From Synergistales bacterium (GTDB lineage Bacteria; Synergistota; Synergistia; Synergistales; Aminiphilaceae), in contig JAIPGA010000001.1 of assembly GCA_021736445.1 (NCBI GenBank), forward strand, positions 1 to 64,000: a DNA stretch of 64,000 bases. The letters run 5' to 3'. This document shows positions 25,261 to 53,235 of this stretch, piece after piece. The position numbers and the translations under genes were made by a program. Each line of letters begins with the position of its first letter. Position 1 is the first letter of the stretch. The notes beneath the pieces were generated by a model that was not told the DNA's origin, searched no databases, and saw only the letters and a list, made by a program, of their open reading frames with translations.

Positions 25261-25440
25261 GGATTGTCCTCCTGACTGGGTCGGTATGCCGGCTCTGTTG
25301 CGGAGTTGTGATCTCGTTGAGGTATGCCTGTTACGACCGGACTGTACGATAGTACGCTGGAAGGGGTAATGCAAGGCCGGACAGGCTCTCAAAAGCGGCA
25401 TAGCGTGATTGCGCTCTCTACCACGGTACCCCCTGCTGTG

Positions 25441-25476
25441 CCCGGCCATCCGTTCCCGCGGATGGCCGGGCTGTTT
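25441..25476 (+). terminator. 12-base-pair terminator-like hairpin without an upstream gene
   Basis: CCCGGCCATCCG (25441-25452) and CGGATGGCCGGG (25459-25470) pair perfectly, followed by CTGTTT. The orientation fits plus-strand transcription starting somewhere in 25270-25430. Confidence 0.5.
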
Positions 25477-25489
25477 CCGTTGACGCCCC

Positions 25490-25519
25490 TTGCCAACCGC
25501 TGTCCTCCTCCGCTACAGT
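25490..25519 (+). promoter_or_regulatory. Candidate promoter of the Rossmann-headed chemoreceptor
   Basis: TTGCCA (25490-25495) and TACAGT (25514-25519) are 18 bases apart, about 170 bases before the start codon. Matches are five and four of six. Confidence 0.4.
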
Positions 25520-25690: not shown

Positions 25691-26560
25691 ATGGCTGAGT
25701 TTAGCATCGCCTTCATTGGCGGAGGCCAGGCGGCGGTGACACTGATGCGGGGATTCGAAAAACTCGGGTTTCCCGTTGCCGGAGTGATGGATATCGATCC
25801 GAACGCACCGGCAATCAAGGCGGCGGAGCGTGACGGTGTGCCGACAACACAGGATCTGGATCAGCTCCTCGCCGTTGATGCCGATCTTTTCATCGAGGTA
25901 ACGGGGAAACCAGAGGTGGTCAGCGAGGTCCAGGAGAAGAAGAAGGAGTCCGCCGGTTTCCTCAGTGCCGAACAGGCCCGCTTTATTTATGAGATTATGG
26001 AACGGGAGCAGGAATCACAGCGGGTCATCCATGAGCAGATCCACAACCTCTCCAGGCTCCAGCAGGAGGTGCGTGCGGTGATCGATCCCTTCCGCAACAG
26101 TGTGAAGGGGCTCACGGAGGGGAACAGCAAGGTGGAGCAGCTTCTCCTGCCGCTGCCGGACAAGATGCAGGAGATGGCCAGTCGTACGGAGCAGATGGAC
26201 GATATCGTCAATTCGATCCAGGGGTTCGCGAAGCACACGAAGGTGCTGGGGTTGAACGCATCCATCGAGGCCTCCCGAGCCGGTGAGGCGGGGAAGGGGT
26301 TCTCTGTCGTGGCGGAGCAGGTGCGGCAGCTCGCCGATGATATCGCACGATCGACGCTGCATATCAGCGAAACACTCACCGGATTCGGCGTGATGCTCCC
26401 CGAGCTGAAAGAACCTGTTCAGGAGATCACGACACTGGCCAAGGGCCGCGTGGACCAGATCGCCGGCCTGGATGACTTCATCGATTCGCTTGTTCACTCG
26501 CTCGAAGAGATGCTGCAGGTGGAGCGGAACCTCTCCGCCCTGGCTGACGGGGAGGAGTGA
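25691..26560 (+). CDS. Cytoplasmic chemoreceptor with N-terminal Rossmann-like domain
   Basis: A 289-residue soluble protein without membrane segments. Residues 3-80 look like a dinucleotide-binding domain: FSIAFIGGGQAAVTL (glycine-rich turn), an acidic end to strand two in VAGVMDIDP, then DADLFIEVTGKPEV, similar to the NAD-binding domains of homoserine or aspartate dehydrogenases. A linker (FLSAEQARFIYEIMEREQ) leads to a short methyl-accepting signalling hairpin with the tip-like LNASIEASRAGEAGKGFSVVAEQVRQLAD near 187-216. It probably reports NAD(H), CoA or a metabolite to CheA/CheW. No enzyme domain follows, so the head is likely a sensor. Start ATG at 25691 with AAGGGG upstream. Confidence 0.8.
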   Translation: MAEFSIAFIGGGQAAVTLMRGFEKLGFPVAGVMDIDPNAPAIKAAERDGVPTTQDLDQLLAVDADLFIEVTGKPEVVSEVQEKKKESAGFLSAEQARFIYEIMEREQESQRVIHEQIHNLSRLQQEVRAVIDPFRNSVKGLTEGNSKVEQLLLPLPDKMQEMASRTEQMDDIVNSIQGFAKHTKVLGLNASIEASRAGEAGKGFSVVAEQVRQLADDIARSTLHISETLTGFGVMLPELKEPVQEITTLAKGRVDQIAGLDDFIDSLVHSLEEMLQVERNLSALADGEE

Positions 26561-51521: not shown

Positions 51522-52364
51522 CTAAAGCTCGAGCTCCTTGAGATTCTTCTGTGCGGAGACAATGGCGGTGATGGTTGCGGTGAGTGCATCAAACTGCTGC
51601 GATGTGGACTGCAGGACGGAACTGGCGTCGGCGATCCGGTTGTTGCCCTGCTGGACCTCCTTGCCTGCATCACCCATCATCTCATCCATTTCCTGCAAAT
51701 ATGTCCTGTTCTCAGCTAAAAAGTCCATAAACTGAGAGAGGGAAGAACGGATCATCTCAAACATCTCACCGATTTGCCGGATGTCGTTCATCGACTGGTG
51801 GACCGCCCTGGAGAGCTCTTCCACCTTCTGGGTTACCGAAGCGGTGGCGGTACCTGCTTCCTCGGAGAGCTTCTGGACATCCGAGGCGACAACGGCGAAC
51901 CCCTTTCCCGCTTCTCCGGCATGGGCCGCCTCGATCGCAGCGTTGATGGCCAGCATGTTGGTCTGGCGGGCGATCTTCTGGATCCCCCGCGACATTTCTT
52001 CGACCTCGGAGAAAGACTCCAGCGTCGAATAGGTGTTCTCGATGGTCTGATTGACGGTATCGCTGATGCCGTCGAGATCGGTGCCCGAACGCTCCAGCTC
52101 CGATGAAAGGTTGGCGTTCATCTCGCTGATCCGGGCGATGTTGTTCTGGCTCTGCTGTCTGTTTTCTTCGAAATTCTGAAGCAGCTTGGAAAAGGCTTCG
52201 CTGAGTTCCGAGAAGTTTTCGGCAACCTCGCGGATCTGGGATTGGCTCCCCTGCACCCGTCGCACGAGGATCGTGTCCAGCTGAGCCATAAAGGAGTTCA
52301 GCAGATTGTTGGCATAGTAGGACGCTGAGAGCTTGTGGAGTATGTCGTCGGAAATATAGGTCAT
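51522..52364 (-). CDS. Soluble methyl-accepting chemotaxis protein
   Basis: A 280-residue protein without membrane helices. An N-terminal helical part of about 40 residues precedes a long coiled coil with the receptor tip (MLAINAAIEAAHAGEAGKGFAVVASDVQKLSEE near 133-165). It must sense through a partner. The gene upstream encodes an ODP-type diiron protein, 46 bases away on the same strand, which is the known arrangement for an oxygen- or iron-sensing cytoplasmic receptor. It ends in LKELEL with no CheR-binding pentapeptide. Confidence 0.88.
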   Translation of the reverse strand: MTYISDDILHKLSASYYANNLLNSFMAQLDTILVRRVQGSQSQIREVAENFSELSEAFSKLLQNFEENRQQSQNNIARISEMNANLSSELERSGTDLDGISDTVNQTIENTYSTLESFSEVEEMSRGIQKIARQTNMLAINAAIEAAHAGEAGKGFAVVASDVQKLSEEAGTATASVTQKVEELSRAVHQSMNDIRQIGEMFEMIRSSLSQFMDFLAENRTYLQEMDEMMGDAGKEVQQGNNRIADASSVLQSTSQQFDALTATITAIVSAQKNLKELEL

Positions 52365-52410
52365 AGCATCACCTCCACGGTGGGTAGTGCTGCATGTGCA
52401 TATCGGTTAT

Positions 52411-53160
52411 CTACATCAGATCAATGCCGCATTTGAGATTATCGAACCAGTTGAGAAAGGCGGCGACATGCTCTCCCTGCATGACCGCCCCGTGCTGGGG
52501 TGCGATCATCTCGACATCAAGCTGACGGACATGACGTACCCAGGCCTGGCAGGCCTTCGATGAAGCCATGTAGCGTTTGTGGAATCCCTCCATGAACTGG
52601 AGATGCCTGGAGAAATCCCGAACTATCTGATAGCGTTGCCCTTCCGGGAAGACCGCTGCACCGATGTCCCCGGAAAAGAGGATCCTGGAAACAGGGTCGT
52701 AGAGCGAGAACTGTCCTGTGGAGTGGAGGTAGTGAGCCGGGATGCACTGGAGCCGGGCACCTCCCATGTCGATGGTTCCGCCCTTGTCGGGGATCGGTTT
52801 GATTCGTTTCTGGTCGTAGACACCGAAATGCGGGAGAAAGCGTGTCCAGAGACCGGAGATATGGACTGTGGCCGACTCGGCCATGGAAAGCCAGAGGGTG
52901 ATGCCCGAGGAGACATCCGGATCCTGGTGGGAATAGAAGATATGTTGTACGCTCTTGATGGGGAAGAGTTCGGCCACGTTGGCCAGCACCCGGGGGAAGA
53001 CATGGGCGCCGCCCGGATCAAGAAGCATCGTGGTATTATTCTGGGCGATGATGTATTGGTTTGTCTGAACGGCCGCGGTCTCTTCCTGTTCTTCCCATCC
53101 GAGCAGGAAGAATTGGTGTTTGCCATCGGAATAGAGTTTCTGCGCCTCCGAGATAGACAT
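52411..53160 (-). CDS. ODP-type diiron metallo-beta-lactamase-fold sensor protein
   Basis: A 249-residue protein of the flavodiiron-like lactamase fold without a flavodoxin domain. Metal ligands visible: HQDPD near 78-82 (in place of the HxExDH of enzymes; the following His is Val), a His in IPAHYLHSTG, Asp in LFSGDIGA and His in IAPQHGAVMQG. Such stand-alone domains bind oxygen at a diiron site and signal to chemoreceptors in Treponema. The adjacent soluble receptor supports this role. Start ATG at 53158-53160; the longer frame is rejected. Confidence 0.85.
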   Translation of the reverse strand: MSISEAQKLYSDGKHQFFLLGWEEQEETAAVQTNQYIIAQNNTTMLLDPGGAHVFPRVLANVAELFPIKSVQHIFYSHQDPDVSSGITLWLSMAESATVHISGLWTRFLPHFGVYDQKRIKPIPDKGGTIDMGGARLQCIPAHYLHSTGQFSLYDPVSRILFSGDIGAAVFPEGQRYQIVRDFSRHLQFMEGFHKRYMASSKACQAWVRHVRQLDVEMIAPQHGAVMQGEHVAAFLNWFDNLKCGIDLM

Positions 53161-53206
53161 GGTACCAGCCCCTCTCTGGTTCTGCTTGGTCTGTTCCGTA
53201 TGGCCC

Positions 53207-53235
53207 ATTATGTACATACTTCAATGAAATTGCAA
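53207..53235 (-). promoter_or_regulatory. Candidate promoter of the diiron sensor-chemoreceptor pair
   Basis: On the minus strand TTGCAA (53230-53235) and CATAAT (53207-53212) are 17 bases apart, about 45 bases before the diiron gene. Confidence 0.5.

Follow-up and report, generated by a model that had tools for sequence, protein, structure and literature searches.

A soluble chemoreceptor with a predicted Rossmann-type sensor head in Synergistota

Cytoplasmic chemoreceptors, such as HemAT, YfmS, TlpD and T. maritima 3g67, are soluble proteins in which an N-terminal sensor or extension precedes the hairpin of the methyl-accepting chemotaxis proteins (MCPs). The sensor parts of the known representatives are a globin, a zinc-binding CZB domain, a PAS domain or none. 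Energy taxis is known mainly via PAS-bound FAD or heme, or indirectly via electron transport; the sensors of Aer and Aer2 are PAS-FAD or PAS-heme, with Aer being anchored in the membrane. A Rossmann domain that senses NADH with a non-enzymatic output is known from the Rex repressor, where the output is DNA binding. Finally, the arrays of Treponema denticola contain CheWS, a SAM sensor in which a CheR-like SAM domain is fused to CheW (PMC10653840).

The receptor described here is encoded on the forward strand at positions 25691..26560 of the window, by which we mean the whole stretch of 64,000 nucleotides that was analysed. It resembles the known cytoplasmic receptors in being soluble and in carrying an N-terminal sensor or extension ahead of an MCP hairpin, whereas its sensor part is a predicted Rossmann domain. 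With Aer and Aer2 it would share a role in which a bound cofactor reports the cell's redox or energy state and steers swimming accordingly, but a Pfam search of the receptor yielded no PAS match at E<=1. As in CheWS, an enzyme-derived cofactor-binding domain would be reused as an intracellular metabolite sensor on a chemotaxis array, although here it is the Rossmann domain that is fused, and the partner is a receptor hairpin. The fold, the glycine loop and the acid after strand 2 are those of the NAD(P)-binding domains of homoserine and aspartate dehydrogenase, DapB, Gfo/Idh/MocA and PYCR; the catalytic and dimerisation domains of these enzymes are, however, missing, and the signalling helix takes their place behind the Rossmann domain. 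Rex should be considered a comparison in terms of how it works, as profile matches to it are weak and the output of the receptor would be chemotaxis signalling instead. No description of a Rossmann- or NAD-headed chemoreceptor was found in the open-licence literature searched. We therefore regard the Rossmann sensor head as what is new, with cytoplasmic chemoreceptors being an already known kind and the present receptor not a new category.

The gene, its head and its hairpin

The open reading frame is complete, with an ATG at 25691, a stop codon that ends at 26560 and 289 codons (289 amino acids plus stop). Upstream of it are a terminator-like stem-loop of 14 pairs (25440..25471, +) and a sigma-70-like promoter match (TTGCCA, 18, TACAGT; 25490..25519, +), both being consensus matches alone, with 1 stem-loop found vs 1.1 expected by chance and 1 promoter match found vs 0.2 expected. 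Since these elements lie just upstream and the two flanking genes, one of poly(A)-polymerase/tRNA-nucleotidyltransferase type and one of FtsZ type, are on the opposite strand, the receptor gene is probably transcribed alone.

Residues 1-92 (25691..25966, +) form the head. In the AlphaFold2 model, strands at residues 6-9, 29-33, 66-69 and 89-91 and a two-residue bridge near residue 52 alternate with helices, and the isolated head was predicted with a pLDDT of 92.8 and a pTM of 0.85. When the head was compared with the PDB by Foldseek, NAD(P)-binding domains topped the list, mostly with TM values of 0.72-0.79. These include the NAD(P)-binding domain of pyrroline-5-carboxylate reductase PYCR1 (E=1.1e-4, TM 0.74) and acetaldehyde dehydrogenases such as DmpF-type 1nvm (TM 0.79); WlbA with NADH (3q2i) was matched with a TM of 0.61. 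The original prediction, which had proposed a Rossmann-like N-terminus and suggested structure prediction and comparison with dehydrogenase domains as a check, is thus borne out, as the predicted structure is Rossmann-like and matches NAD(P)-dependent dehydrogenases. At the profile level, Pfam places NAD_binding_3 on the head below threshold, at 20.8-22.4 bits vs a cut-off of 24 (E-values of 6.6e-4 with the whole protein and 2.2e-4 with the head alone), followed by weaker matches to F420_oxidored, GFO_IDH_MocA and a pre-ATP-grasp domain. On the basis of the model, we consider the head to be a minimal Rossmann domain.

The motifs that would line a cofactor site are present. The glycine-rich loop GGGQAA (residues 10-15; 25718..25735, +) follows strand 1, and its G10, G11, G12 and A15 are invariant; Asp34 (25790..25792, +) ends strand 2 and is invariant both in the family and in its Clostridia and Oligoflexia relatives; EVTG (residues 69-72; 25895..25906, +) stands at the end of strand 66-69 and is invariant within Synergistota. 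The GxGxxG/A loop and the acid that closes strand 2 are accordingly both found, with G10, G12, A15 and D34 invariant in the family alignment. All motifs named at the outset, namely GGGQAA, Asp34 and EVTGKPE at residues 69-75, could be located, but the KPE of the last is not invariant in the Synergistota family. The remaining invariant head residues are L25, G31, A39, P40, A41, A45, T52, L59, L60, D65 and L66, in addition to E69, V70, T71 and G72 of the EVTG motif. In Rossmann domains, cofactors sit at the C-terminal ends of strands. Invariant residues make up 12/20 positions at these strand ends vs 8/69 at its other positions (Fisher p=2.9e-5), a test that should be read as descriptive, as the position set was drawn after the invariant list had been seen and the sequences are related.

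The signalling helical hairpin comprises residues 93-289 (25967..26557, +), with predicted helices at 93-152, 155-196 and 198-286. Within it lie the MCPsignal domain (PF00015, E=1.1e-21; residues 157-281; 26159..26533, +) and the intact tip KVLGLNASIEASRAGEAGKGFSV (residues 184-206; 26240..26308, +), the region through which chemoreceptors contact CheA/CheW and one another in trimers; it contains the conserved Glu193. The whole receptor, modelled from the 13-member family alignment, shows the strand-helix pattern of the head and then three long helices, with a pLDDT of 89 and a pTM of 0.53, a value that can be expected of a long hinged hairpin. The signalling helix begins at residue 93, immediately behind the head's last strand; Pfam found no enzyme or catalytic domain after the head, where the helix 93-152 follows directly, and no membrane segment separates head and hairpin in this soluble protein. 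The claim that a soluble receptor hairpin is joined to the head with no catalytic domain between them therefore holds. With the whole receptor as Foldseek query, chemoreceptor hairpins came first (YfmS 9a72 and the T. maritima soluble receptor 3g67), and lower matches were to coiled-coil proteins and to the same dehydrogenases as for the head alone.

A search with the receptor protein revealed ten MCPs in the genome of the window. Compared with the nine others, 24-29 of 55 tip residues are identical. After the tip, 96 residues follow in the Rossmann-headed receptor vs 166-201 in eight other MCPs and 135 in the ODP-linked MCP, which makes it a receptor with a short hairpin, about 28 heptads overall. 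No CheR/CheB consensus methylation site was found in the window protein, and none is conserved in the family. Such sites are also absent from some cytoplasmic receptors, and their absence does not exclude membership of the MCP superfamily.

Distribution, conservation and surroundings of the family

When 188 Synergistota genomes were searched with the head only, 13 were found to carry the gene, the window's genome included, in 4 families. Among the carriers are strain L-13, a Synergistales MAG and a Synergistaceae MAG, while the gene is absent from three other genomes examined of the window's own host family. The family is sharply delimited, as its heads score 143-166 bits, whereas the matches that come next in the phylum do not exceed about 24 bits. 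Those weak head matches, which are ordinary full-length dehydrogenases and similar proteins (aspartate dehydrogenases, Gfo/Idh/MocA proteins, acetaldehyde dehydrogenase, DUF2520 proteins and a CofD), were rejected as family members. A scan of genome contigs with the head alignment yielded six loci, one of them outside Synergistota; the same kind of scan with the single window protein gave no match.

The family proteins are 284-289 amino acids long, align almost without gaps over their full length (n=13) and have open reading frames throughout, and PF00015 is present in every one (13/13). With mean pairwise identities of 53% and 68%, respectively, head and tip are the conserved parts of the family, whereas the linkers drift, identity being 38% in one helical arm and 31% in the other. 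In 13/13 proteins, 124 residues lie between EVTG and the tip glutamate. In the gene tree, sequences cluster by host family, and the sequence from the window forms a long branch whose placement is unsure. Only the tree of the Synergistota sequences was used, as a tree including both distant relatives had long branches and no resolved order. The tree is consistent with old vertical inheritance combined with repeated loss.

The original prediction had proposed a search for the same fusion in other genomes, and besides the 12 further Synergistota genomes it occurs in Acetoanaerobium and, in a reduced form, in an Oligoflexia genome. Acetoanaerobium noterae (Clostridia) has the same fusion in a protein of 260 amino acids (L057:3995-4774), with a head that exceeds the DapB_N and GFO_IDH_MocA cut-offs. 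Its distance from the EVTG position to the tip is 117, exactly one heptad below 124, which is the indel rule expected where a coiled coil transmits a signal in register. The Oligoflexia genome contains a shortened form of 220 amino acids (L029:5968-6627), whose tip, LNMSVEAARLGSQAAGF, is degenerate and whose gene adjoins one of nitrate-reductase delta type; its head-to-tip distance of 86 is not a heptad step, and this reduced form may no longer contact CheA. The Acetoanaerobium relative was found with the Oligoflexia protein in a plasmid collection, on a 2.6-Mb record listed as a plasmid. The plasmid collection gave no match when searched with the window head, and no Rossmann-headed receptor was found in the viral contigs searched. 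In deltaproteobacteria, some sensor histidine kinases may carry a head of this kind.

The genomes with the gene have the apparatus that a chemoreceptor would act on. CheA is found in 13/13 carrier genomes vs 130/188 across the phylum, flagellin also in all 13 carriers, and CheR in 12 of them, the exception being a genome that is 77% complete. The genome of the window has two CheA-type loci, one of which lies about 67 kb away on the same contig, in a second chemosensory cluster (about 87.6-94 kb, L071) that contains CheR, CheD, CheB, a receiver-histidine kinase and CheA.

Gene neighbourhoods differ. When roughly 15 kb around the gene were compared between the window and seven relatives, no neighbour proved to be conserved across families, and the neighbourhood was therefore rejected as a clue to the ligand. 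In two genera (G123 and G175), a BtuR/CobA corrinoid adenosyltransferase gene is divergent from the receptor (L064:6960-7565 and L065:6417-6932), with gaps of 43 and 102 bp, respectively. In the f11 family, the second gene upstream of the receptor is a B12-dependent methionine-synthase-like one. We consider these neighbours a lead only. In a further genome (G003), a soluble protein in which a PocR sensory domain is fused to a partial MCP domain (L067:6395-7195) is encoded by the gene that directly precedes the Rossmann-headed receptor in tandem.

Proposed mechanism, alternative ligands and a second sensing input

In the reading that we prefer, the protein is a cytoplasmic chemoreceptor for a dinucleotide-type metabolite inside the cell, with NAD(H) as the likeliest candidate, and we judge this reading to be evenly poised between right and wrong. 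The head, a minimal Rossmann domain that lacks a substrate or catalytic domain, would keep the cofactor pocket of a dehydrogenase. At its C-terminal strand ends, the head would change with ligand occupancy or redox state, this change would pass into the hairpin via the helix that starts directly after the last strand, and altered CheA activity at the tip would bias flagellar rotation, giving taxis toward a metabolic state. As a rule, Rossmann domains in which strand 2 ends with an acidic residue prefer NAD(H) to NADP(H). Given the invariant acid at this position, NAD(H) is thus the most likely predicted ligand, if a dinucleotide is bound. More tentatively, and with slightly poorer prospects than an even balance, direct binding of NAD+/NADH by the dehydrogenase-derived head may provide anaerobes with redox (energy) taxis from the cytoplasm that uses neither PAS nor flavin. 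If true, fermenting anaerobes, in which respiratory signals are weak, would have their swimming tied directly to the NAD(H) pool by a cofactor site of the dehydrogenase type. The sub-cut-off Pfam match of the head, the lack of a conserved metabolic neighbour that points to NAD(H), the patchy occurrence (13/188) and the lack of a conserved methylation site count against this explanation. As the head is small, soluble and confidently folded, the question can be addressed with one purified protein.

It should also be considered that Rossmann heads can bind CoA, UDP-sugars or SAM, or can only dimerise. The receptor might accordingly steer by another ligand, such as CoA or acyl-CoA, a UDP-sugar, SAM, or a corrinoid-related or amino-acid metabolite. 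Several family heads indeed match YvcK/CofD-type (UDP-GlcNAc) and purine ATP-grasp families weakly in profile searches, and the BtuR and methionine-synthase-like genes could be taken to point to corrinoids, although neighbours are not conserved across families. A repurposed enzyme domain that senses SAM on chemotaxis arrays is likewise known from CheWS (PMC10653840). Nonetheless, the structural matches are to NAD(P)-dependent dehydrogenases and the invariant acid of strand 2 is a signature of NAD(H), and we consider a different ligand unlikely.

Still less probable, in our estimate, is that the head binds no small ligand and is a structural or protein-protein module, serving dimerisation or the docking of a metabolic enzyme, with a partner protein supplying the signal. 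Receptors of the ODP type do rely on a sensor that is a protein of its own (PMC7666581), and the same window contains a pair of this kind. However, no partner gene is conserved beside the Rossmann-headed receptor, and a mere scaffold would not need the glycine loop, Asp34 and EVTG to be invariant at the cofactor site. That the receptor is now without function, or is an artefact in which fragments of a dehydrogenase and of a receptor were fused by chance, could be argued from the patchy spread and from the window's genome being the single carrier in its own host family among the genomes examined. We regard this as highly improbable, as the almost gap-free fusion recurs in 13 genomes of 4 families and in relatives from two other phyla, both of its parts have invariant motifs, the spacing is fixed and all reading frames are open.

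The pair in the window consists of an ODP-family protein with a metallo-beta-lactamase fold (51522-53217, -; PF19583, E=1.3e-77) and, directly downstream of its gene, a second soluble MCP of 280 amino acids. The ODP oxygen sensor and the receptor TDE2496 of Treponema denticola form the same kind of pair (PMC7666581). Together with the Rossmann-headed receptor, this pair would bring at least two cytoplasmic sensing inputs into one 64-kb window.
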